Under the pieces are notes generated by a model. The model saw nothing but the letters and a program-made list of their open reading frames with translations. It searched no databases and was not told where the DNA came from. Below are positions 3,377 to 20,744 of a DNA stretch of 20,744 nt, piece by piece. The translations under genes and the position numbers were made by a program. Source of the DNA: a virus; IMG/VR virus record IMGVR_UViG_3300006733_000154, positions 1 through 20,744 of that record. The stretch is one strand, 5' to 3'. Position 1 is the stretch's first letter. The number at the start of each line of letters is the position of its first letter.

Positions 3377-3721
3377 CTATGGCAATGGGGGAAAGCTGCG
3401 GTCAAGCAGGTTCTTGTACCTGCACTCCCATATCCCGAAGCGGTCACGAATGAAGTTCTGCGCTCCCACAACCCTGAACGGTTTGCAAGAGTAGATTTCC
3501 ATTGAGAGGTAGGGGGGGCGGCCATCGAGATTGTAGTAATGGCCGAACACATGGGACTCAGCAATCATCTGAAAGAAGGAAGGTCCGAGGGCATCAAACT
3601 CCTGCCAGCAGAAGGGGCCAACCGGCGTCATGTCGACGGTCCGTATCAGTTCAAGGGTAAGCTGCTCGGCTTCGTCTTTGGTCAGTGTCCGCTTCACATA
3701 GCCATCGTACATGAGGTGCAT
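3377..3721 (-). CDS. speD: S-adenosylmethionine decarboxylase (SpeD) family pyruvoyl enzyme homologue, 114 aa
   Basis: The segment MIAESHVFGH matches the self-cleavage site of AdoMetDC proenzymes. Glu55-Ser56 would be the cleavage bond, with Ser56 becoming the pyruvoyl group, His61 at +5 and Cys79 in IYSC at +23. In the bacterial Thermotoga-type enzyme the corresponding Ser, His and Cys are at 0, +5 and +20, so the processing and catalytic residues are kept with a three-residue insertion. The TWPE segment that follows the His in bacterial SpeD is replaced by YYNLDG, so the substrate pocket may differ. SpeD homologues acting on ornithine or arginine instead of AdoMet are known. The chosen ATG at 3721 gives the usual length and has AGGGGG ten bases upstream. 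A GTG at 3781 would add 20 residues and overlap the upstream gene. It is the last gene before the early promoter. It is likely a polyamine or SAM-related accessory gene of the phage. Confidence 0.75.
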   Translation of the reverse strand: MHLMYDGYVKRTLTKDEAEQLTLELIRTVDMTPVGPFCWQEFDALGPSFFQMIAESHVFGHYYNLDGRPPYLSMEIYSCKPFRVVGAQNFIRDRFGIWECRYKNLLDRSFPPLP

Positions 3722-3756
3722 GGCCTCGATTCCCCCTTCGCTGAAATGGCTCCATT

Positions 3757-4248
3757 CTATCCACCACCCGATGCCTGCCACAGTCTGATGATTTCCCAGA
3801 TGAGCAAGCCGACCGCCCCTATGATGCCCGTCGGTATGCCATACTTCTTGGCAGCCTGTTTCGCCTTGTTCACCTCAGCGTCCTGCTTACCTCTCCTATA
3901 GCCGTTGAGTCTCGACACCTTCTCCTCTACACGCCGAATCTGGTGCTCATGTTCCCCACAAGGCAACTCCTTGATAGCATTGAACACGCGATCGAATATC
4001 GGCGGGATACCCAGCGCAGGATTTCCCTGAAAATTGTGCTCAAGTTCCGTCACCACGTTATCAACCTTCCCCAACTTGATAGTGCTGGCGGCGACTTCCT
4101 TTACCAGGGTGTCCACGACGACGGCCACTGTATCCACCTTCTCAAGTTGTACATTGGCGCCGGCCACTTCCGTGACCAACCTATCAACTATAGCTGCGAC
4201 CGTCCCAAGTTGCTCCATGACCTCAGCGTTATCGTTCTTTTCCGTCAT
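3757..4248 (-). CDS. Coiled-coil protein with one C-terminal transmembrane helix (holin/XhlA-like), 163 aa
   Basis: Residues 12-70 are heptad-rich and internally repetitive (VDRLVTEVAG..., VDTLVKEVAA..., VDNVVTELEH). This is followed by a charged stretch (HEHQIRRVEEKVSRLNG, 100-116), then a Lys/Arg-rich linker and one hydrophobic segment at about 138-156 (GIPTGIIGAVGLLIWEII). A coiled coil ending in a single C-terminal membrane helix resembles XhlA-type haemolysin/holin accessory proteins and some phage lysis proteins. Its position after the tail gene also fits a lysis module, but no endolysin is seen nearby. The start at 4248 overlaps the previous stop as ATGA. An anchored tail or ejection accessory protein is an alternative. 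Confidence 0.65.
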   Translation of the reverse strand: MTEKNDNAEVMEQLGTVAAIVDRLVTEVAGANVQLEKVDTVAVVVDTLVKEVAASTIKLGKVDNVVTELEHNFQGNPALGIPPIFDRVFNAIKELPCGEHEHQIRRVEEKVSRLNGYRRGKQDAEVNKAKQAAKKYGIPTGIIGAVGLLIWEIIRLWQASGGG

Positions 4249-8700: not shown

Positions 8701-9882
8701 CTATACAAACTTGCCGAACCCTACGAAACTGGCTAGCTGCTCCCAGTGTAACTCGTCGGTTCTGACGTAGTGCATACCGTAGGCATAGTGCTCATACGGC
8801 ACCTCTTTCTTGTGCCCCTTCTCCGTCACTATGCGGTCGAACTCGGTGAGAGGAAATGGCACAGCGTGGCACCACCCGAATCTATCAGGGCGTACCGTGC
8901 CAATCCATTGTTTTGTCTCTCGCACGGTGTCCCAACTCTCCCCGGGCAAGCCAATCACGAAACTGCACTCGCTCCCGATGCCGGCCGCCCTCGTCATTTC
9001 ACAAGCCCTGGTCGCCTCCTCCACCGTGGTTCCCTTTTTCATTCGGTCGAGCATTTCCTGACTGCCGGACTCAATACCGTAAAAGATGTTCCACACCCCA
9101 GCCTCGCAAGCCAAGTTCAGGAACTCCTCGGTTATCAGTTTCTCGTTGACCCTGCAACAGATTCGGAAGAGCATGTCGTCGTTCAGTCCACGGTCAACGA
9201 TACCCTGCAGAATCTCACCCGCCCACTTCAGGTTCAGGTTGAACGTATCATCCTGCAGAAACACCTCGGCGGCCCCGTACTTATCCCTCAGTATTTGGAT
9301 TTCGTCAAGAACGAGCTGCGGGTTGCGGTATCGTACCTGCCTGCCCCACATGACAGGGGTATTGCAGAAAATGCACTCGCTCGGGCATCCACGGGATGCC
9401 ATAATGCACATCGACGGCACCGCCCCAACACCCGAAATGCCACAGAACTTGTTGAGCTCCACCAGTTCGTAATCCAGCATCGGGATATCGTCAATGCTGT
9501 TTACCCACGGCCTCTCTCCGAGGATCTCCAACCACTTGTTCTCACCCTCTCCCACGACTACTGCATCCGCCCCGTTGTCCCAGACGCAGGCATGAGGGCC
9601 GCCGACCACCAGGCGTGTCCCCTTCCCGTCCCGGTGCAGGTAATTGCTGATCTCTTTGGCGTGCTTGACCTGGAAGGTGTTGACGGTGAGCCCGACCAAC
9701 TCTGGCCTGTAATCCCTAAATACGTCCTTGAAGTCAACGGAGTGGTCCAGGTCCATGTGCCACACCTGCACCTCATGGCCGTGCATCCGGGCCAGCGTGC
9801 CCAAGATGAGGAGGGCCGTACTAGGTGCCTCGCAATACGGCTGATACCAGTTCATTCGAGGTTGAACTAAGAGGATTCGCAT
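8701..9882 (-). CDS. B12-binding-type radical SAM enzyme, 393 aa
   Basis: The radical SAM [4Fe-4S] motif is SRGCPSECIFC, with Cys166, Cys170 and Cys173 (CxxxCxxC). The N-terminal 150 residues have the Rossmann-like layout of cobalamin-binding domains in this class (PSTALLILGTLARMHGHEV, LVVGGPHA, VVVGEGE at 108-114). No DxHxxG cobalamin ligand motif is visible, as is common in this class. Further family marks are FLQDDTFN (208-215), YGIESGS (268-274) and FVIGLPGE (308-315). Members use the 5'-deoxyadenosyl radical and often methylcobalamin to methylate unreactive carbon or phosphorus, or to rearrange rings. The substrate cannot be told from sequence. It is the last gene of a cassette with a glycosyltransferase and methyltransferases, overlapping the upstream methyltransferase gene by 16 bases. 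A sugar or glycan substrate is therefore plausible. It is intact, with no sign of decay. Confidence 0.85.
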   Translation of the reverse strand: MRILLVQPRMNWYQPYCEAPSTALLILGTLARMHGHEVQVWHMDLDHSVDFKDVFRDYRPELVGLTVNTFQVKHAKEISNYLHRDGKGTRLVVGGPHACVWDNGADAVVVGEGENKWLEILGERPWVNSIDDIPMLDYELVELNKFCGISGVGAVPSMCIMASRGCPSECIFCNTPVMWGRQVRYRNPQLVLDEIQILRDKYGAAEVFLQDDTFNLNLKWAGEILQGIVDRGLNDDMLFRICCRVNEKLITEEFLNLACEAGVWNIFYGIESGSQEMLDRMKKGTTVEEATRACEMTRAAGIGSECSFVIGLPGESWDTVRETKQWIGTVRPDRFGWCHAVPFPLTEFDRIVTEKGHKKEVPYEHYAYGMHYVRTDELHWEQLASFVGFGKFV

Positions 9883-10595
9883 GGCCTCACCTTCTGCGCC
9901 AACACATAGAGGTGCGTGCCTGTGTAGTACAGTTCGTCGCCATGGCCGATCATCTCCTGCGTTTGCATGAACTCGGACAATACGGCCTGGTGGTCCGAAA
10001 CCTTGTCATTGTGCAGCAACGCCGTGTATATGTTCGGGACGTCACCCGTCTTGCGCCTTGCAGCAAATCCCCAGTCCGCCAGTTTCAGAAGCAGGGCAAA
10101 GGGCGTGTAGCATCGAATGTGGAGCGAACCGAAGGGCGGCACGTTGAAACCATTGGGGGTGGTAAGGAACAAATGCCCGCTTGTCTGCAATACTCGGTTG
10201 ATCTCAGAGAGTAGCGCATCGTCGTTCGGGACGTGCTCGATAACCTCACGGCAAAGCACAAGGTCGAAGCTATGCGTCTTGAATGGAAGTTGGCAGCCGT
10301 CCCCTACCATGTCCACGTAGTCGCTGTGTACGACGTCCAACACGGTCGCATGTGCCCAGCACATACGCTGAATCAAGGCAGCCTCCGGCCACTCTCCGCC
10401 GCCAACGCACAGCACATGCAGGTCGGCTATGCCGAAATCCCAGAGTAATTTACTGGCGATGTCATTCCGGGTCTCGTTCATCCACAGGTCCGCTTGATAG
10501 TTGGATCTGCTCTTGTCCTTCCACCACTTCTGGTGCATCCCCTCATGGAGCCGGTAGAGCTGGAGGTATCGCTTGTCGACCCGAGCCGTAGTCAT
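9867..10595 (-). CDS. SAM-dependent class I methyltransferase, 242 aa
   Basis: The SAM-binding motif I is VLCVGGGE (about 61-68). Motif II/III elements follow (DMVGDGCQLPF), then SFDLVLCREVIEHVPNDDAL and GHLFLTTPNG. This is the Methyltransf_11 layout typical of small-molecule and sugar methyltransferases. Motif I is GGG rather than the common GCG. The start is taken as the ATG at 10595, which overlaps the previous stop as ATGA. Another in-frame start at 10616 would add seven residues. The C-terminal HIRCYTPFALLLKLADWGF segment is a usual post-core extension in sugar-linked members. Its target is unknown, but its neighbours suggest a glycan or its carrier. Confidence 0.85.
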   Translation of the reverse strand: MTTARVDKRYLQLYRLHEGMHQKWWKDKSRSNYQADLWMNETRNDIASKLLWDFGIADLHVLCVGGGEWPEAALIQRMCWAHATVLDVVHSDYVDMVGDGCQLPFKTHSFDLVLCREVIEHVPNDDALLSEINRVLQTSGHLFLTTPNGFNVPPFGSLHIRCYTPFALLLKLADWGFAARRKTGDVPNIYTALLHNDKVSDHQAVLSEFMQTQEMIGHGDELYYTGTHLYVLAQKVRPCESS

Positions 10596-11119
10596 CGCAC
10601 CCTCCTGAGTACCCACTCGTCGGTTTGCATATCAACGACTTCAAAGCGAGGAGAGCGATCAAGGAACCTGTCGACCTCGGCTTTGACGATATGGTAGTCG
10701 TGGCCTGCCAGAAGCCCCCCCACTTTCACCAGGCTGCGCCATGCTTCCAGGTCATCTGCTATAGCGTCGGCGTTGTGGTTGGCGTCGATGTATACCAGAT
10801 CAAGCGAGATGCCCCGGTCCACAAGGCACACCGAAGCCAGCATAGAGTGCATGTTCAGCCATTCCACCCTGCCGTTGTACGGTTCCAACACTAGGGAAAC
10901 CATGGTCTGTCTCGCTATGTTTAACTCCTCCTGAGTCACCGGGTCATAGACGTCCTGATATGCCTTGTAAGGGTCAATGAGATATAGCTTGACTATGTCC
11001 AGCCCCTCCAGCATTGCCAGAGCGTTCTCGCCCAGATAGACACCCACCTCTGCCACAGTGAGAGGAGGTGCGAGTAACTCCCTCGCCAGTTCCCCGCTTC
11101 TACGCATTGCCGCTACCAT
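10592..11119 (-). CDS. SAM-dependent methyltransferase (Methyltransf_24-like), 175 aa
   Basis: The SAM-binding loop AEVGVYLGENAL (23-34) is followed by LYLIDPYKAY and by DLVYIDANHNADAIADDLEA (about 107-126). The latter is the acidic and IDAxH signature of the Methyltransf_24 group, whose members methylate sugars, macrolides and other small molecules. The strand GGLLAGHDYH (134-143) completes the core. At 175 residues it is a minimal domain. The ATG at 11119 overlaps the glycosyltransferase gene stop by seven bases; a second Met at residue 5 could also be used. It is coupled to the next methyltransferase by ATGA, so both are probably made together. Confidence 0.8.
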   Translation of the reverse strand: MVAAMRRSGELARELLAPPLTVAEVGVYLGENALAMLEGLDIVKLYLIDPYKAYQDVYDPVTQEELNIARQTMVSLVLEPYNGRVEWLNMHSMLASVCLVDRGISLDLVYIDANHNADAIADDLEAWRSLVKVGGLLAGHDYHIVKAEVDRFLDRSPRFEVVDMQTDEWVLRRVR

Positions 11120-12696
11120 GTCACGCAGCCGTCCCCGCTCGTCAGCGTCGTGTATGAGACTCCCCTCACTATCCTATGATCGGGGTCATGCTTGAAAAAG
11201 GGATTCTGCGGCGTTGAGAAAATCATCACGCCGTGCTTGCCGACACGCTTTGCCTCGGCTACCACCTTCTCCGGGCTGATGCAATGCTCCAGCACCTCGC
11301 AACACCAGACAAACCCGAACTCGTTGTCCTTGAACGGCAACTCATGGGCGTCATGCACCAGAATCTCCTGGTTCACGCCGTTGCCGTTCTCGTTCCTCTT
11401 GTCCACGGGGTAATACTTGCCCATCCCTTCGAGGTACGGCTTATAGGGAGTAGTCACGCCACAGCCCAGGTCCAGCACCTTGCGGGGTTGGCACGTCTTG
11501 GGAATGAACAGCAGTTTCCATTCCTGTACGCCTTCGAGATTGGTGCGGGGCGCTTTCAATTTCTTCTCAATACGGTCAAGAACGGGAACCCACAGTTCGG
11601 GAAACACTACATTGTCATCGAACTGCAAAGCAAAGTCCCGTGCCTTGTCCTTCTCGATTTGTATGCTCCCGTCCTTCCAGGCCGCAAACGCCTTCTCCAG
11701 TTGCTCTAGAATATCGTCTGGGTCGCACTCAAACTGCCACGACGCCTGCGACGTCCAGACACGGTGCTTGTCGTACACCGGCACATACCAGCCGCCGCCG
11801 AGCAACTCCGCATGGCTGGTGCATTTGGTGATGATGTTCGGGACACCACAAGCCTGCGACTCGACAATCGGCATACCGAACCCCTCACCTTTTGAGGGCA
11901 GCAAGTGGACGTCCATGACATTGTACGTGCGGGCCATGGTCTCTTGCTCAATGCCGATTTCCAGGCTGTCCTGCGAGGGGAAGAATGTCGTGCCGCCTAT
12001 GCCCAAAGCAAGCCGCAGGGCGTTCAGGTCAATGCCCCTCTGGTCAAATACCTTCGTGTGGCAATACATCACGGTCTCGCCCTTGTGCCGGTGCTCGAAC
12101 TCCGCAAATGCCTTGAAGCTGGCCGTCCAGTTTTTCCTCTCGTTGTGGTTTGTGGCTACGCAGCCGACGACGAACTTCTTGGTCCAGTTGTACTTGTCCC
12201 GCGCCTCGTCTCTCCACATTTGATTCGGCTGAAACAGATTGCAGTTGATCGCCGGTGGGATGTACTCGGCATTGATGCCGATCTCCTGCAGCTTCTCAAC
12301 GCCAAAGCGGGACTGCGTAATCGCCTGGATGATTGCCGGGTGCTTCTGAAGGATGTCCGTGACTATCTTGGGCGGCGGGTCATGGTCGATGGGCAACCAC
12401 GGCACCCACGGAATATCAAGGGGCATACCACCCAGCACCCAAACATCGACCAGGGTGAGGAATATGTCTGCATTGAAGTCCTTGAAATAGGCCGGGGCTT
12501 GCGAAACCCCCCAGTCGTCGGTGTTGTTGGGATATATGGGGACTTCGCCCCAATCCACCTTTGTGCCCTTCAAGCCCCAGAAGGCGAGCACGGCTACATC
12601 GTGCCCCAGGCGGCGGAGCCAATGGACACACGATGCCGTTGTCATTCCGTAGCCAGTCGGGGCAAACGGGATATTGCTACTCCATAAGATTCTCAT
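11113..12696 (-). CDS. GT4-type glycosyltransferase fused to a SAM-dependent methyltransferase, 527 aa
   Basis: Residues 1-390 form a GT-B, GT4-like glycosyltransferase. It has the N-terminal donor-side start MRILWSSNIPFAPTGYG, a central VVGCVATNHNERKNW strand and the EGFGMPIVESQACGVP signature, with the E-x7-E pair at Glu271 and Glu279 that binds the nucleotide-sugar ribose and phosphate. From about residue 400 there is a separate methyltransferase: KVLDLGCGVTTPY (SAM motif I, about 402-414), then HDAHELPFKDNEFGFVWCCE, VLEHCISPEK and GVMIFSTPQNP. The two domains follow one another without a frame break, so this is a true fusion. It suggests that a sugar is transferred and then, or at the same time, methylated. 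The gene starts 77 bases after the coat gene, behind a stem-loop. No signal peptide or membrane segment is seen, so it acts in the cytoplasm. Confidence 0.85.
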   Translation of the reverse strand: MRILWSSNIPFAPTGYGMTTASCVHWLRRLGHDVAVLAFWGLKGTKVDWGEVPIYPNNTDDWGVSQAPAYFKDFNADIFLTLVDVWVLGGMPLDIPWVPWLPIDHDPPPKIVTDILQKHPAIIQAITQSRFGVEKLQEIGINAEYIPPAINCNLFQPNQMWRDEARDKYNWTKKFVVGCVATNHNERKNWTASFKAFAEFEHRHKGETVMYCHTKVFDQRGIDLNALRLALGIGGTTFFPSQDSLEIGIEQETMARTYNVMDVHLLPSKGEGFGMPIVESQACGVPNIITKCTSHAELLGGGWYVPVYDKHRVWTSQASWQFECDPDDILEQLEKAFAAWKDGSIQIEKDKARDFALQFDDNVVFPELWVPVLDRIEKKLKAPRTNLEGVQEWKLLFIPKTCQPRKVLDLGCGVTTPYKPYLEGMGKYYPVDKRNENGNGVNQEILVHDAHELPFKDNEFGFVWCCEVLEHCISPEKVVAEAKRVGKHGVMIFSTPQNPFFKHDPDHRIVRGVSYTTLTSGDGCVTW

Positions 12697-12773: not shown

Positions 12774-13883
12774 TTACCGGGTGTCGTTGAACCGTGCAGC
12801 AAGCAACTGGTCAAGAACTTTCACGCCCAGCAGGATGTCGAGCGAGATTAGGTTTTTCTTGGTCCTCTGCTCGTACCCGTACACCACGCGGGCGCTTATG
12901 TTCCTGAAGTTCATGACGCTCGCCTGCGCTCCGCCCAGCGGTGCCTCCAGTGGTGCCGTTACCAGAGCGATTGCGTTCTTGTGGAACGCCATGTTTGCCC
13001 TGCCAGACGGCATGATGGTGACCACGCTGTTATTGGCGAACGGCCCTGTCACAGCAGGCGCGACACCTACAGTGACGGTCCCGCCAGTGGACGCCGTGGC
13101 AGCCGTGTTCGACACGAACCACTCGTCGTAGCCGGTGACCTTGATGTTGCTGCCCACGGGAATTACAGCCGAAGCCGTTATCCCGTCTATCGCCAGTGCG
13201 GTTGCAGCAGCAGCCACCGTTGCGTCGATAGCACCCGTCGAGTCGGCGCAGGTTATGGTGTGGGTCTGGATGTTCTGGTCCATATAGGTATCGAACCCGA
13301 GCACCTGCCCCAGCTCCGCCTTTCGGAGTGCTTGTCCGCCGTCTCCCCGCTTATCTGCGTTCAGGAACGCGTCGAGGCTCATGTATCCACTCTTGGTCAT
13401 CGGATGCAGGACAAGCCTGCGGTCCATCAGAGGAACCTTCTGCGCGTCCATTACCGCCTCAAGTCCTGCCACGTCCCCGACTGCCGGGGTCGAACTGACC
13501 TCGTAGTGGCCCCCGATCTCGGTGTACTTGTCTGCGAGCTGTCTGTCAATCGCCTGAGCGTGCCCACGCATCGCAGGTTGAATCAACTGTTCGCTGAAGT
13601 CCTTCATAGAAAGAGTCAGCTCCTGGCTGGTGATCTCAACCGTGATGTCGAGGTGGGTGTCCAGTACGACGTCGACCGATGACTCCGTGAGGGTCTGCGT
13701 GTTGACAGTCCCGCTTACGGTGCCCGAGGTCAGGGTTGCAGGCTTGCGGATTGACACAGTGCTGCCCACCTTCTTGAACTCCTTGCTGAAGTCACGGTGA
13801 ACCAACCCCGCCAACACCATGTTGTTCTCGAGCACGATTAGTGACTCGGCTGCAATCATGTGCGGGGTTATCAGTGTCGCCAT
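12774..13883 (-). CDS. Major coat protein, P22-type HK97 fold, 369 aa
   Basis: The N-terminus (ITPHMIAAESLIVLENNMVL, then HRDFSKEFKKVGSTVSIRKP at 29-48) is the P22 coat-family signature (H-R-D-x-S-K-E-F-x-x-V-G-x-T-V-x-I-R-K-P). So is ITSQELTLSMKDFSEQLIQP (85-104), which matches the family's TSKELTLSIEDFSERYIQP pattern. About residues 217-295 form a Gly/Thr/Val-rich beta insertion that may be the counterpart of the inserted domain in P22-like coats. The C-terminal LLGVKVLDQLLAARFN is typical of the fold's end. The gene lies directly after the scaffolding protein, with AGGAG seven bases before the ATG at 13883. It should be the most abundant protein of the virion. Confidence 0.9.
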   Translation of the reverse strand: MATLITPHMIAAESLIVLENNMVLAGLVHRDFSKEFKKVGSTVSIRKPATLTSGTVSGTVNTQTLTESSVDVVLDTHLDITVEITSQELTLSMKDFSEQLIQPAMRGHAQAIDRQLADKYTEIGGHYEVSSTPAVGDVAGLEAVMDAQKVPLMDRRLVLHPMTKSGYMSLDAFLNADKRGDGGQALRKAELGQVLGFDTYMDQNIQTHTITCADSTGAIDATVAAAATALAIDGITASAVIPVGSNIKVTGYDEWFVSNTAATASTGGTVTVGVAPAVTGPFANNSVVTIMPSGRANMAFHKNAIALVTAPLEAPLGGAQASVMNFRNISARVVYGYEQRTKKNLISLDILLGVKVLDQLLAARFNDTR

Positions 13884-13902: not shown

Positions 13903-14610
13903 TCATTTGAACCGCGCTTTGACGGACGGATGCTCGGCATACTCCTCAGCCGTCATACGCTCGATTTGCTCCGGCGTCAATTCCGCGGTGGCTCCCCTGC
14001 CGTCCATGGAGTCAGGTCGGCTCGCTGGTGGTGGCTCTGGAGGTGGCTCGCCTGCTGGTGGCTGCCCTGTTCGTGGCAACTTCTGAGCGAGCGACTCCAT
14101 TGACTCGAAGGTAGAACCTCCGTGGGACAACAAGACGGCCTGAGCGACACCATACTGAGAAGCAAGGTTCGCAGCCCACGATTGGGACTGCAAGGTGTTG
14201 AACTGCGTTTGAGCGGTCTGAAGTGCTGCTTGCTCGCTTCGCAACGCCGCTAACTGTGTATCGGCGTCCGCCATCATCTGACGAGCCTCTTGCTTGAGCC
14301 TGTATGCAGCCAGTCCGTCATCGTTCCCCTGTAGCCCTTCCATCTCTCTGGCGTCGATCTGGCCCTGGAGTGCCCTTTGCTGTTGGGTTAGACTGGAAAT
14401 CTGAGATTCCAGCGTGCTTGTCCTCGTCTGGGACTCTTGCGCTACCCGCCGAGCATCAGCCAACTCCCGACCGTGGGCGGTCTTGGCATCCTGCACCATC
14501 TTATCAACCTGAGCCTGTGTGTACGACTGGGGCGGGGTACTTTGTCCGGGATCAGGCGGGGTTGCCTCGAATTGAGGGGTGCCCTCCTGAGTGCCTTCCG
14601 TTTCACCCAT
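13903..14610 (-). CDS. Capsid scaffolding protein, 235 aa
   Basis: The composition is acidic, Gln- and Ala-rich and strongly helical, with no cysteine. The N-terminal 30 residues are a Pro/Thr/Gln-rich disordered tail. About 31-150 is a long coiled coil (LESQISSLTQQQRALQGQ; LRSEQAALQTAQTQFNTLQS). A second Pro-rich linker follows (GEPPPEPPPAS, about 185-195). The C-terminus is basic (EHPSVKARFK). Its place directly upstream of the coat gene, its size and its coiled coil fit the scaffolding proteins of P22- and phi29-like phages, whose basic C-terminus contacts the coat. GGGAGG lies eight bases before the ATG at 14610. No protease domain is visible. Confidence 0.8.
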   Translation of the reverse strand: MGETEGTQEGTPQFEATPPDPGQSTPPQSYTQAQVDKMVQDAKTAHGRELADARRVAQESQTRTSTLESQISSLTQQQRALQGQIDAREMEGLQGNDDGLAAYRLKQEARQMMADADTQLAALRSEQAALQTAQTQFNTLQSQSWAANLASQYGVAQAVLLSHGGSTFESMESLAQKLPRTGQPPAGEPPPEPPPASRPDSMDGRGATAELTPEQIERMTAEEYAEHPSVKARFK

Positions 14611-14665: not shown

Positions 14666-17600
14666 TCACCTCACTACCTCCTCACCCACATAGTACAACT
14701 CACCAGGACGCACGCCCGGTGGCCGTAGCAGAATATCCCACTCAGGTTCCTTCCAGTGGCCGAGCCTCACCATTTCGTCAGCAAGCCCGACATGGCCGGT
14801 CAGATACTTCACCCTCTCCCTCTCGCTGTCAAAGTCCTGCATATAGTAGTCCACGTACTCAGGGATAAACCGTTCGGCTACCCCCTTCTGATAAGCGTCC
14901 CGGCGCCGGCGTGCCTCGGCATACTCGGGGTTCTCGATCAGGTACGCGTCTCGGTCACCGCCCGGTTTCAGTTCCTCGTATGTGTCATCTTGCTGGCGGT
15001 AGTCGACATTGATACGCATGACCTCTATGTTGTGGTCGGGCTCGTCAAGCCCCGCCCAGTCCAGATAGGCCGGATGTTCCATGCGCCAGAGTATTGCCTC
15101 GGAACTTCCGGGGGAGTATTGGTCAATCAAATCCTGGTACTCAAAGACGCTCTCAGCGACGTTTTTAGGGGGTATACCCTCCACAAAGGATGACGGGACG
15201 TCCATCTCGTCTAGCATGGAACTGGCCTTATTGTAGCCCTCCAGCGTTGACAATTTCGGGCCACCCCAGATCGACAACAATGCGTTTTGCTCAGGGTTGG
15301 CCTTCAGCCAGTCCTCGCGGCGATTGACCGTCAACTCCGGGTGCTCCTCAAGGAAAGCCTCCTGCTCCGCTTCCGGCAAGTCGTGGTACTCCTGAATCAA
15401 CTCAACGTCCCTGCGGCTCAGAGAAGTGTCCGCGTAGACGTCGGTGATCTCAGATAGCGGTGTGGACGGGAAGCTGTTGTATATCTCCCTGGCCTTTTCC
15501 TTCTCCGCCCAGGACTTCACTATTGGGCTATCCGTATCACCTATCACCTCGTCTGGTGTCATGCCCGAGAATATGCTACGCAGTTCGGTACTCAAGTCGT
15601 TCATACCGTAAATGTCGGGTTCCTCGGTACTCCAGATCAGATCCTCCTCGTCAACGGGCTCGCCCAAGCGTGCCACGGCATCGGCAGCCTTTTCCGTCGG
15701 TGTTGGCGGCTGCGTGGTGGCCCCGAATATGGCATGCTGCAGCGCCTCAGCCAATGACCTGTCAACCTCATACTGGCCGCCGTTAAGTCGGTATTGCTCA
15801 TCAATCATGCCCCGTATCTTTCGCATCGCTTCCTTGTCGACATGCTTCCTGTCTGTAGCAGAGTCAATGGCCTGCACGGTGATTTTGTAGAACGGCAAGC
15901 CCTGCTTCGCTGTTCTGCTTATCATGTCGGGTAATTTGCCCATAGCATATTCGTTCCCTTGACTGGCATCCACAATGTAGCCAACAGTGTCACCAATCAT
16001 AGTGAAGGACGCAAGCAGCAAACCGCCCGGGCTGTACTGTAGGATATTGAGGGGGTTATAAGGGTTGTATCTTTTGCCCGTCATGAGCCCGAACAGCCAA
16101 CCCGCCATCATTCCAGCCACAATGATGTATGCTACATTCTTTGCTGCCTCGTATCGCTCTTTTGCTGGCACATCCGCCTTCGGGTCGAGCTTGCCCAACT
16201 GAAGCAACATACGCTCGGCCCAGGACCGTTGAAATACGAGGATGTTCCCCATGATCTCACCTGTCGGCCCGTGCTCGGCCGGTGCCCGTTGCGCCCTGTC
16301 ATAGAGGAACTGCACGTTGTTCACATGCTGCTGCGTGACGTAGCGGAGAAACGCCTCTTTGCCACTGACGGGCTCCATTCCCTCAATGCCGTAGTCAACC
16401 GATTCCCTACCGAGCAATTCAAGCGCATGGACCTGCTGCAGCTTCGTCAATTCATTGGTGCCGGAGCGTTCGAGGAGTCTATGCACGTCCCCGTCCCTCT
16501 CGAACTCGGTCACCGCCCGGTCAACCCGGTTGCTCCTCAGCCAGAAGGTCCATAGCCTGTTTACCTTGTCCGACCACGGGAAGGCGCTAGTGCGGTTTGC
16601 CATCCTCAATAGTTTATCCATCGGAGCCGCCGACGTGCTGACGTTCAAGCCCAGCTTGCGGAAGAAGTACAACGCATCATTAAGGTCAAGAGGCTTGACT
16701 CCCCGCATGAGGTAGTCCTGAACAAGCCCCTTGTCCTGCGCCACGAATATCTCAAACCATAGCCGTCTCTCGGGGTTCACACGCCTATTACGGCGGTCAA
16801 ACGTCAACACCGTGTCGGGGTTGAAAGCCAGATTCTGATGTAAGTTCCTGACTGCCATATATGGTTGCCAGAATGTTGCCGCCGCAAACTGCGAATAAAG
16901 TCGTTGCGCCGCCCAGTGGAATAAGCCCCCGTGCTCACGGTAGCCCTTCATGATATTCAAGTCCCGACTCAGTACGCCGGCGATATGCTGCGGATTCTCG
17001 AACTTCCCCGCCTCCTCCTCGAACGTGCGGGCAAAGGTACGGACTTGCGGCTGCACATGAATCAAGCCGTAAAGCTGGCGCATGTACGAGCGATAGCGAT
17101 CCAGAATGTTCCTGTCCTCTTGCGTGAACTCGTTGCCCTGGCGTGTCTTGATATGGCCCTTCCCGAACGTGGTGACCTTCGGCTTGAACAAGTAGAGGTG
17201 AGGCTTGACTATGGATAGCGGACTGTAGCCGCTCCGAATCACGCCCCAGTCCTGTGTGTCAAGAAACTCACGAAGTGCAGTATCGCCCTTTGACTCAAAG
17301 ATGTCGACGGCACGCCGGAGCGCCTGTTTCGGTGCGCTCGGGATCTCGTTCTGTATGAGCTGTACGTCCCCGCCGTGCTCGGCAAAGGCGTTCTTGAACC
17401 TGGCGAATCTCACATCGTTCTGAAACTGAAACAGTTGGCGCTCCAGTTCCTCAGCGACAGCCACCTCCGCATCCGTCATGTCGGTCGGTGATTTGACTCC
17501 GCTCGCTTTATGCTTGGTCGCAATGTAGTCCTCGACCCGGCGCATGGCCGCATCGTTGCCCGCGATATCCTTGAAGTCATCCTTGCCTGCGACGTCCTCC

Positions 17601-20600
17601 AGCCTGTTCAAAAGGTGCTGCTCGTACTGTCTGCGGGCGAGGTGGGTCATGTTAATCATGTTCCATTGCTTCGCCAACTTCGGCCCCAACTTCTCCACGT
17701 AGTAGCGCATGGACCGCAACTCGCTCCCGTAGCCGATGCGAACCGGCTTGCCCTCCAGTTCTGGCTCGGGCGTCATTTCTCCCTGGATGATATTGCGCTC
17801 CCTGGCTATGGCGGGGTGGGCTGCAAGGCCGTCCTCTGTGGCGATCTCCTCAGCCATCCAATCGGCTTCGTCGTTCATAGCCCGAATCAGCGCCTTGCCG
17901 TCAGACTCCGTGATGTAGCGTTCGCCGGAGATATAGCCCTCCACCCTGAGATTGAGTGCAGCTTTCAGCCGCTCGAAACTCTCCTCGGTCAGCTTTTTCT
18001 CTCTGAGCAGGGTCGCCTTCAGCAGTTCAATCTTGTGCTCAGTCTTGCGGGTGATTACCCGGTGCCCCTTGATCGTCTTGGGCCGTGCTTCTCTGACGGC
18101 TTCGAGGGTGGCCTGTAGTTGTTCCTGCGTCATCTTGGTGAGGTGAACCGACTTGCCGTGCTTGCGAAATAGATTTTCATAGTGGACCTTCGGCAGCCCC
18201 TTGAAGCTAACGGCGGCCATAATGGTTGAACGCAGCTTCTTGACCTCGGGGGTCGGTTCGGCAGGCGGGGGCTTCTCCGCCTTGGGCTTCTTGCCTTTCT
18301 TCGCAGGTTCGGCGGCGGGTTCCTCGACAACCGTCTCAGCCACCACTTCAGCCTCCTCGACGGCGGCCTCAGCCACGGGTTCGGTAATTGGCATCGGTTC
18401 AGACGTGCGTTGTTGGCTGATAACCCGTCCTATTTCTCGCGCTGTCCACTTCGACCCGCCCTCTGTAATAACCGATTTCGGGTTTTTCTTAATCACTTTC
18501 AGTGGGACGTTGCCTCCCACGTCAATGGAATCGCCAACTTCAATGCTATCCAGTTGCACTTGCTCATATTCTGCGACATGCTTCGCAGTTTCAATACGTT
18601 GCGGTGCGCGTCTCTGATACTCGATTTGACCCTCAACAGACCTCAGTTCCTCAGTAAGCCTCACCACTTCGCTAGCGCGGTTAATCCTGCGCTCCATTTG
18701 TTGCTCAACCTTCTTCATCCTCTTGCCTGGAACCCCGCTGGCTCCTGTTACATACGTCCCTGGCATATCGGTTCTGTCTGATTGCTCAATAGCTTTGTTC
18801 AGTTTCTCCAGGCGTGTCCTTATCCTGTCCCGCTTTTGTAGCAATCTCCAGTCCACCGGGCCTTCCTCGACCACGACCTCGGGGGTCTCGCTCGGCTCCA
18901 CGGGCACCTCGACGGGGGGAGGCCCTATCACCACTCCAGTAGTGCCCAGTGGGACTACGGGGGCTGGCGGTAGTTTCGTCTCTGCCTTCTGCTGCAACTC
19001 GGGGTAGTCCGCCAGCACTTCGGCGGCTTTGTGATTTAGAGATTTCAGGTCAACAGTTTCGGCTGTTGGGATATTACCAACTCTTTGAACCATATCGGCA
19101 TCAGGCACAACAACCACACCATCATCATAGACGGTAGCATCTTGTGAACTGACATAGGCCACAATGATCCCACCACCAGGACTGGCATAAGCAGCAGCGT
19201 CTTGCGGGCGCTTGTAGAAATAGACACCAGGCCCATGCACACCTTGCTCGGCTTTGACTAACTCAGCCATTCCTCTTGGGCCTACACCACGAAATACTGG
19301 AATCTGAGGGAGATTACGATACTCCTCCCTAGTCATCTCCCACGGCTGCTTGGCGGGCGGGGTAATCCCCGCCTCAACCTCTGCCCGCTCAATCGCTCCT
19401 TCCAGCCCAGCCACAAACTTGCCCATACGCTCAGATTTTGCCTTCTCCGCAGTACGCCGTGCCTTCTGGAACTGCCGAATCGCTGCGTCCGTGTCACCCA
19501 CCCCCTCCGCTTCAACCGCTGGCGGGGGGACCGCAGCGGCGGCTTCCTGCACACCCTCAAGTCCCGCAGCCCTTTTGACCAACTCCGCCTTTTGCTCGAT
19601 TGACACAGGCATCGCAACGACCTTGACCTCATCACCGACCATGAACGTAATCGGCCCAGATGCCGTGTTGACCAAGATCGTCGCATCAGGGTGGTGCTTC
19701 AAGGCCAGGGAGAGAATGTCCAGATTGAGGCGTGCCAACACGCTGCCGTTCCACAGATACGCGCTTGGGGGATAGCCCCGCTCTATCGCCACAACTCGGG
19801 CAGGCGTACCCCTGTTCTCCTCACTCGGTATCAATTGCTGATAGTTGGGGAACTTCTCCTTGTTCGCTTCTATCTGCTGCTTTGTCCACTCTTTCACCTC
19901 AGCAGTGGCTTCCGCTAGACTCAGGTCGGGGCGTAGCCGCATACGGGTTTTGATTTCCCTCTGCTCAATCTTTTTGAGTGCATCATTGAGCAGTTCGTCA
20001 GCCACGTTCGGGTCAAGGTACATGACAAACCCATCAGTCGCGACGTGCGCCGTAACGCCGCCATAGAACAGTTGCGGCCTCATTTCCACCTGGTCCTCTA
20101 GATTTAACCCCTTGCTCGGATTTGACGCCTTCTTGAGAATGAAATCCATGTCTTGGGTAGGAACCACGCCCTCGTAGTCCTCAAGCACTCGCATGGTCTG
20201 TGAACGGTTCAACGCAGCAAACGGCTGCCCGAACTTGTGCTCGGCAATCCGCCCCAACTCTTGCTGTGCGTCTGCTGGCATCTCCGCCCGCACCCCCCTC
20301 ACCGCCTGCACCGTCACGGGCTCTATCCCCGATATCTCCCCCAACTCCGCCCTCTGCCGCTCGAACTCTATGTTCCATGCCGCCGCATCCGCCTCGTTCT
20401 TCGCCCTGATCTGCCCTGCCGTCCACTCGATATTGGCCCGCTTGGTTACGTTCTCCACTATGGCCGCCGCTTCCTCGTTCTCCCCTACCAACTCGTCCAT
20501 AGCTAGCAGTTTGGCGTTCTTCACTGTCATGCCGGTCCTGACGTGGTTGGCAACCTTCCTGACAAACTCCATGTTCAACTCGGGGTTGAAGTTCCTCTCG

Positions 20601-20744
20601 CTCACCCGCGCAACCGTGGCTATGATGTTCGCTCCGAGCCCCGGCACCACGCCCCACATGGCCCCGAGCACAGCCACCTTCCTGAACTCCTCCTCGCTCA
20701 GATTGCCCGGAATATCCCAGAACTGGACCTCCTGCCCCAATGCC
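14666..20744 (-). CDS. Giant multidomain phage protein (over 2020 aa) with ADP-ribosyltransferase-like module and two membrane segments, partial
   Basis: The frame is open at the right edge; the first possible start in view is a TTG at 20740, so the true N-terminus is probably outside. Residue numbers count from there. Residues about 475-560 look like an ADP-ribosyltransferase fold (PVFRGVGPRG with Arg484; GPGVYFYKRPQDAAAYA, 503-519; IIVAYVS), but the catalytic Glu is not obvious. About 588-624 and 781-832 are Pro/Val/Glu- and Pro/Lys/Ala-rich linkers. Between them, about 729-773 is a small beta domain (VGDSIDVGGNVPLKVI). Two hydrophobic segments lie at about 1533-1553 (VAYIIVAGMMAGWLFGLM) and 1570-1590 (GGLLLASFTMIGDTVGYIV). 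Near the C-terminus are repeats of the type FLEEHPEL, LKANPEQ and LIENPEY. The features suggest an internal virion or DNA-ejection protein of the 'polyvalent' kind, possibly with an injected enzyme. Portal and terminase are expected further right. Confidence 0.7.
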   Translation of the reverse strand, partial: ALGQEVQFWDIPGNLSEEEFRKVAVLGAMWGVVPGLGANIIATVARVSERNFNPELNMEFVRKVANHVRTGMTVKNAKLLAMDELVGENEEAAAIVENVTKRANIEWTAGQIRAKNEADAAAWNIEFERQRAELGEISGIEPVTVQAVRGVRAEMPADAQQELGRIAEHKFGQPFAALNRSQTMRVLEDYEGVVPTQDMDFILKKASNPSKGLNLEDQVEMRPQLFYGGVTAHVATDGFVMYLDPNVADELLNDALKKIEQREIKTRMRLRPDLSLAEATAEVKEWTKQQIEANKEKFPNYQQLIPSEENRGTPARVVAIERGYPPSAYLWNGSVLARLNLDILSLALKHHPDATILVNTASGPITFMVGDEVKVVAMPVSIEQKAELVKRAAGLEGVQEAAAAVPPPAVEAEGVGDTDAAIRQFQKARRTAEKAKSERMGKFVAGLEGAIERAEVEAGITPPAKQPWEMTREEYRNLPQIPVFRGVGPRGMAELVKAEQGVHGPGVYFYKRPQDAAAYASPGGGIIVAYVSSQDATVYDDGVVVVPDADMVQRVGNIPTAETVDLKSLNHKAAEVLADYPELQQKAETKLPPAPVVPLGTTGVVIGPPPVEVPVEPSETPEVVVEEGPVDWRLLQKRDRIRTRLEKLNKAIEQSDRTDMPGTYVTGASGVPGKRMKKVEQQMERRINRASEVVRLTEELRSVEGQIEYQRRAPQRIETAKHVAEYEQVQLDSIEVGDSIDVGGNVPLKVIKKNPKSVITEGGSKWTAREIGRVISQQRTSEPMPITEPVAEAAVEEAEVVAETVVEEPAAEPAKKGKKPKAEKPPPAEPTPEVKKLRSTIMAAVSFKGLPKVHYENLFRKHGKSVHLTKMTQEQLQATLEAVREARPKTIKGHRVITRKTEHKIELLKATLLREKKLTEESFERLKAALNLRVEGYISGERYITESDGKALIRAMNDEADWMAEEIATEDGLAAHPAIARERNIIQGEMTPEPELEGKPVRIGYGSELRSMRYYVEKLGPKLAKQWNMINMTHLARRQYEQHLLNRLEDVAGKDDFKDIAGNDAAMRRVEDYIATKHKASGVKSPTDMTDAEVAVAEELERQLFQFQNDVRFARFKNAFAEHGGDVQLIQNEIPSAPKQALRRAVDIFESKGDTALREFLDTQDWGVIRSGYSPLSIVKPHLYLFKPKVTTFGKGHIKTRQGNEFTQEDRNILDRYRSYMRQLYGLIHVQPQVRTFARTFEEEAGKFENPQHIAGVLSRDLNIMKGYREHGGLFHWAAQRLYSQFAAATFWQPYMAVRNLHQNLAFNPDTVLTFDRRNRRVNPERRLWFEIFVAQDKGLVQDYLMRGVKPLDLNDALYFFRKLGLNVSTSAAPMDKLLRMANRTSAFPWSDKVNRLWTFWLRSNRVDRAVTEFERDGDVHRLLERSGTNELTKLQQVHALELLGRESVDYGIEGMEPVSGKEAFLRYVTQQHVNNVQFLYDRAQRAPAEHGPTGEIMGNILVFQRSWAERMLLQLGKLDPKADVPAKERYEAAKNVAYIIVAGMMAGWLFGLMTGKRYNPYNPLNILQYSPGGLLLASFTMIGDTVGYIVDASQGNEYAMGKLPDMISRTAKQGLPFYKITVQAIDSATDRKHVDKEAMRKIRGMIDEQYRLNGGQYEVDRSLAEALQHAIFGATTQPPTPTEKAADAVARLGEPVDEEDLIWSTEEPDIYGMNDLSTELRSIFSGMTPDEVIGDTDSPIVKSWAEKEKAREIYNSFPSTPLSEITDVYADTSLSRRDVELIQEYHDLPEAEQEAFLEEHPELTVNRREDWLKANPEQNALLSIWGGPKLSTLEGYNKASSMLDEMDVPSSFVEGIPPKNVAESVFEYQDLIDQYSPGSSEAILWRMEHPAYLDWAGLDEPDHNIEVMRINVDYRQQDDTYEELKPGGDRDAYLIENPEYAEARRRRDAYQKGVAERFIPEYVDYYMQDFDSERERVKYLTGHVGLADEMVRLGHWKEPEWDILLRPPGVRPGELYYVGEEVVR

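Follow-up and report, generated by a model that had tools for sequence, protein, structure and literature searches.

A giant late protein of a viral contig, probably a modular head-cargo protein, with an ART-like module

Polyvalent proteins of phages are found near late genes, and it has been proposed that they are packaged and injected; ADP-ribosyltransferases (ARTs) are the commonest of their protein-modifying domains, with His-Tyr-Asp (H-Y-D) given as the residues of the polyvalent ARTs (Iyer et al. 2017, PMC5512222). The Alt protein of phage T4 is an injected ART (PMC5512222). A different arrangement is provided by the muf genes, which sit immediately downstream of portal genes and may encode ART extensions (Jamet et al., PMC5576092).

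The window analysed here, i.e. the whole of a single viral contig of 20,744 bases, contains a giant late gene the product of which can be set against each of these systems. Like the polyvalent proteins, it is a very large, multidomain product of a late gene in a portal-terminase phage, and LPD38, ParB-like and ART modules occur in members of its family; it differs in that Pfam has no name, and PHROG only scattered matches, for its conserved frame (modules N1, N2 and A plus a C-terminal core), and in that the window itself shows only one weak named domain. With ART-PolyVal (PF18760, the H-Y-D clade) it shares a predicted fold, a GVYF motif with the strand-2 Tyr and the position in a giant phage protein, whereas the strand-1 His is replaced by Arg, the third residue is uncertain and the score is about half the cut-off. 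The analogy to T4 Alt would be that of an ART travelling in the phage head and acting at once, as proposed here for the giant protein, but Alt, a member of the R-S-E clade, is not a polyvalent protein (PMC5512222), and no R-S-E pattern was recognised by eye in the window. MuF minor head proteins and MuF toxins (PMC5576092) have in common with it the slot downstream of the portal and the variable effector modules; however, no MuF domain was found, and the cargo of the giant protein is central, between conserved ends, not C-terminal. The closest solved folds are those of the Rhs toxin ARTs TreX (VIA Z of 8.4) and TreTu (by Foldseek rank), but the identity is 10-15% and those toxins are delivered by other systems.

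Judging from sequence comparisons, we consider it reasonably probable that the giant protein is a modular polyvalent-type head-cargo or ejection protein, packaged in the head and injected. This likeness had been noticed in a preliminary description made from the window alone, and it gains support from the relatives, which carry LPD38, ParB-like and ART-PolyVal-like domains of that class. The class, i.e. polyvalent, head-packaged and effector-bearing proteins, is already known, but a conserved frame that bears exchangeable cargo and sits in the post-portal slot seems not to have been described, as far as the libraries searched show; we found no literature on this particular giant-protein family. 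If true, phages of uncultured bacteria would use one conserved delivery frame for many interchangeable early effectors, such effectors could be found by reading the stretch from the conserved N-terminal module to the middle domain, and the notions of an internal ejection protein and of an injected effector, usually separate, would come together.

The giant gene and its relatives

The frame runs along the minus strand without a stop across 2025 codons, down to the stop codon at 14666-14668, and both the single chain of more than 2020 residues announced in the preliminary description and its location just upstream of the scaffold gene are borne out, with 55 nt between the giant stop and the scaffold gene (Table 1). 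It is a real gene and not a chance frame, because homologues align along its length. The TTG at 20740 was ruled out as the true start: the frame runs off the contig, and this codon is simply the first start-like one past the edge. Since the frame is open there, the protein must be longer than 2025 aa. The window starts within module A, which, according to an iterated HMM, begins at residue ~320-500 in relatives. An iterated profile made from residues 1-140 placed the conserved module at about residues 480-700 in other members, and a wider profile placed it at about 320-690 in some 20 relatives, as compared to residues 2-102 in the window. Thus, ~450-550 residues would be lacking at the N-terminus, and the full-length protein would probably measure ~2,500 aa, within the range of complete relatives. 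Residues are numbered here from the first codon of the contig; the numbers of the preliminary description are one lower.

Table 1. Features of the giant gene and of the adjoining head genes in the window
Feature	Position	Strand	Basis
Giant late gene, 5' end lost at contig edge, 2025 codons visible	14666..20743	-	ORF listing and family of relatives
N-terminal module A, residues 2-102, includes hydrophobic segment 23-45	20438..20740	-	Iterated HMM; hydropathy
Hydrophobic Gly-rich segment, residues 23-45	20609..20677	-	Kyte-Doolittle 1.74
Window-specific cargo, residues 214-382, clamp-like motif spacing	19598..20104	-	Small clamp profile vs shuffles
ART-like module, residues 476-566, candidate site R485, Y508, D550	19046..19318	-	PF18760 sub-threshold; fold model and fold searches
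Pro-rich linker, residues 591-630	18854..18973	-	Composition
Small strand-rich stretch, residues about 728-775	18419..18556 (residues 730-775)	-	Sequence inspection
Pro/Lys/Glu-rich linker, residues 780-832	18248..18406	-	Composition
Middle domain, residues 832-1720	15584..18250	-	Common only to four sister contigs, 38-52% identity
Hydrophobic segment, residues 1536-1557	16073..16138	-	Kyte-Doolittle 1.83
Family-wide C-terminal core, residues 1794-1896	15056..15364	-	HMM hits in relatives reaching this region
Acidic C-terminal tail, residues 1859-2000, degenerate repeat unit	14744..15169	-	Composition; repeat search
Scaffold gene adjoining the giant gene	13903..14610	-	phrog_206 2.4e-6
P22-type major capsid protein (MCP)	12774..13883	-	PF11651 8.6e-38; phrog_283 1e-68

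Relatives were found on about 40 other viral contigs, by searches that started from the capsid protein and went on to the C-terminal core and the middle domain. Their giant proteins are mostly of 1,682-2,735 aa (one, that of L006, is split in two), and an iterated profile of the C-terminal core matched most of them at 1e-48 to 1e-15. A tblastn search with the whole giant protein against 50,697 annotated phage records gave no match; no Pfam or NCBIfam family was above cut-off and no PHROG was convincing. Peptide-pattern scans of viral contigs returned no matches for the whole protein or for its ART region, and no relatives of the middle domain were found in cellular genomes. On one 44.6-kb contig (IMGVR_UViG_3300036760_000421) there are two distinct giant genes that resemble each other (L110 and L112; 2073 and 1948 aa), for which a duplication, two joined phages or an assembly effect could account. 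The 12.5-kb contig of another relative (L137) was assigned by binning to an uncultured Chloroflexi bacterium; this is a weak hint at the host, the binning of phage contigs being unreliable.

Mosaic architecture of the giant protein family

The sequences of the relatives show a fixed frame, made up of N-terminal modules and C-terminal core, that encloses two exchangeable parts, a cargo zone and a middle domain. Along the chain, a conserved N-terminal part is followed by the variable cargo zone, by one of at least five alternative middle domains and by the conserved C-terminal core; when the modules were tabulated, N1, N2, A and the C core were common to members and the middle domains were mutually exclusive. 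A further model, N3, was discarded as a module, for it drifted between the N- and C-terminal parts, probably via a shared repeat. The middle domain of the window is of the type common to L120, L125, L126 and L128; another type is LPD38 (PF18857), matched in L107 and L122 only (at 1.4e-43 and 1.3e-49), and there are three further types. LPD38 was rejected as the middle domain of the window: there was no profile match, and profile-profile comparison gave no support for a link of the window domain with LPD38 or with the other middle types.

Several segments already proposed in the preliminary description take their place on this frame. The two hydrophobic segments were found again (Table 1), as were the Pro-rich linkers, at about residues 591-625 and 780-832, and the small beta domain, which matches a stretch that is strand-rich on inspection. 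For the C-terminal acidic repeats the outcome was mixed: the last 300 residues are indeed acidic (21.7% D/E, 10.3% K/R) and the degenerate repeat is real in the family, with 1-5 copies in relatives, but in the window a single copy is above threshold. No peptidase family matched the giant protein of the window, which has no HExxH motif.

The cargo zone holds, in the window, one weak ART and a putative clamp-like stretch. In the latter, VATDGF, FPNYQQLIP and MPVSI are spaced as in the bacterial sliding clamp, and a small clamp profile scored 5.6 bits, with 3 of 2000 shuffles scoring higher; the yardstick was the E. coli clamp sequence, 100% identical over its length to the database record. The Pfam clamp domains PF02767 and PF02768 had no match in the giant protein. 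We regard the likeness as a lead only, because the idea arose after viewing the sequence. ParB-like stretches were observed in the cargo zones of L120 (residues 635-695) and L131 (residues 20-130). That of L131, VNGHQRLALAKRSG, was recognised by inspection and is in the same chain as an ART. The DdrB-type ParB family (PF18763) had no match in the window or in the relatives tested.

The ART-like module

The module is located in the variable cargo zone. ART-PolyVal is the only Pfam family reported at residues about 490-576, where it scores 16.2-16.4 bits (E of 0.018 in the domain scan and of 1.6e-4 in a single-record search), i.e. about half of the 31.2 bits set as the curated cut-off. Besides the window, only L106 matches this family among 31 records (3.1e-5), and a search with the L106 module led to L131, which also matches PF18760 (4.7e-4). 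The modules of L106 and L131 are 57% identical, though the middle domains are of different types, and both display a clear LYHATT...GVY...RMDF pattern, i.e. His-Tyr-Asp. In the window, the strand-2 Tyr is present (Y508, in GVYF) and D550 is aligned to the RMDF Asp, in a part where the model is below pLDDT 50; the position of the strand-1 His is occupied, in the alignment, by R485 (in VFRG). Since the expected His is an Arg, the activity of the window copy is only putative, and the doubt over the catalytic residues that the preliminary description had raised stands. A profile built from L106 and L131 alone did not find the window module above shuffles, and a PDB sequence search with the window ART region gave no match.

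A single-sequence model of residues 455-610 had a pLDDT of 34.8 and was discarded. When L106 and L131 were added as rows, the mean pLDDT was 60.9, with about 66-83 over the first 70 residues; these two relatives are themselves ART-like and thus able to steer the fold. With this model, Foldseek put ART-fold toxins, PARPs and tRNA 2'-phosphotransferases in the lead among PDB entries, at E of 0.06 and up (best 0.056, a moderate value), and PARP-like and ART proteins among viral models. In the VIA comparison, all of the 50 top rows were from the ART superfamily, the best Z being 8.4 over 94 residues (TreX), with 7.4 for Tpt1, 7.3 for diphtheria toxin and 7.2 for PARP16; a Z under 8 may reflect a common arrangement, and the unanimity of the 50 rows is the stronger point. 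The ART-like fold suggested earlier for residues 470-565 is upheld mainly by the guided model and the fold comparison; the sequence likeness is weak, with a score below the cut-off. Of the domains typical of polyvalent proteins, LPD38, ParB-like and ART-PolyVal-like ones are present in relatives, and a sub-threshold ART-PolyVal in the window. Overall, we are rather confident that residues 476-566 have an ART fold, while the chance that the module is catalytically competent falls, in our estimate, a little short of even.

The head-gene slot and possible roles

On the minus strand of the window, the giant gene is followed by the scaffold gene, the P22-type MCP gene and then sugar- and methyl-transferase-like genes. 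The order in sister contigs L125-L128 is TerS-like gene, TerL gene (phrog_2, 2.6e-16 to 5.6e-31 in the three tested), a conserved ORF of 538-577 aa and the giant gene, with scaffold and MCP genes where the contig continues. Late virion genes of the portal-terminase type are therefore present near the giant gene, scaffold and MCP in the window, TerL and the portal-size ORF in the sisters. From its size and place, the ORF of 538-577 aa is a putative portal gene; its product gave no profile match and no PDB-sequence match. In other phages, the slot that the giant gene has in relatives is taken by MuF minor head proteins, and an illustration is Streptomyces phage Galactica, a capsid relative, which has a MuF-like gene between the portal gene and the genes preceding the MCP. 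A different capsid family, phrog_212, stands beside the giant gene in L127 (15314-16339) and L128 (10956-11981), as compared to phrog_283 in the window, and thus the giant gene moves among phages of differing capsids. In the 45-kb contig of L120, no other ORF of more than 600 aa was seen between TerL and an integrase-like gene, and consequently no tape-measure gene stands out. This hints at a short-tailed phage, for which the giant protein would be the obvious candidate for an internal or ejection protein.

One could argue, in line with the structural alternative of the preliminary description, that the protein is mainly a structural internal virion or ejection protein, as in short-tailed phages, its ART-like module being either a degenerate remnant or an inactive binding domain. 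The conservation of frame and C-terminal core but not of cargo, the lack of a tape-measure-size gene in L120, the hydrophobic segments, and the Arg in place of His together with the uncertain acidic third residue would all fit, and a structural role may hold for most of the giant chain. Yet enzyme-like domains can be recognised in the cargo zones of relatives (ParB-like, H-Y-D ART), which points to selection for activities, and we take a mainly structural protein to be possible but doubtful. It is unlikely, in our view, that residues 476-566 are not an ART at all and that a chance pattern was boosted by the alignment used for the model: the sub-threshold Pfam score, the failed single-sequence model and the miss by the L106/L131 profile speak for it, but ART-PolyVal is the sole Pfam family there, the same Pfam model matches the cargo zones of two other members, and the best structural rows were ART in 50 cases out of 50. 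Another possibility would be an enlarged MuF-type minor capsid protein, bound to the portal and extended by a long effector part. The slot is that of the Galactica MuF-like gene, and muf genes directly downstream of the portal may carry ART extensions (PMC5576092); however, none of 30 N-terminal plus middle regions matched MuF at E 0.1, many of the N-termini being complete (the window's own is missing), and we hold this origin to be very improbable.

If the giant protein is, as we favour, a polyvalent-type protein packaged and injected, one may speculate about its course. The conserved frame would bring it into the procapsid, perhaps via the portal or the scaffold; there it would form the internal or ejection protein of a seemingly short-tailed phage and, upon infection, would enter the cell along with the DNA, possibly aided by its hydrophobic segments in passing across or into the membrane. 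The ART-like module might then modify a host molecule early, like T4 Alt; catalysis by the window copy is the least certain step of this scheme. A bolder version, speculative and somewhat unlikely, is that a single head-slot family would be both ejection machinery and carrier with plug-in cargo (ART, ParB-like, clamp-like and others), the ends serving for loading and delivery, and that the R-Y-D ART of the window would be a new active-site variant.

A few other genes of the window, all on the minus strand, deserve mention. The interval 8701-12696, which separates the capsid gene from the next structural-looking one, contains genes for two methyltransferases, for a B12/radical-SAM protein and for a glycosyltransferase-methyltransferase fusion. 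The fusion gene is conserved after the MCP gene in 13 relatives, with 46-55% identity. The ORF at 3377-3781 has a weak match to the S-adenosylmethionine decarboxylase family (phrog_3125, 6.3e-6), which is unusual for a late region. The product of the ORF at 2-1456, open at the contig end, resembles on inspection an SbcC/SMC-type ATPase, with GQNGSGKTTLMDSFLWLLFG near its start.
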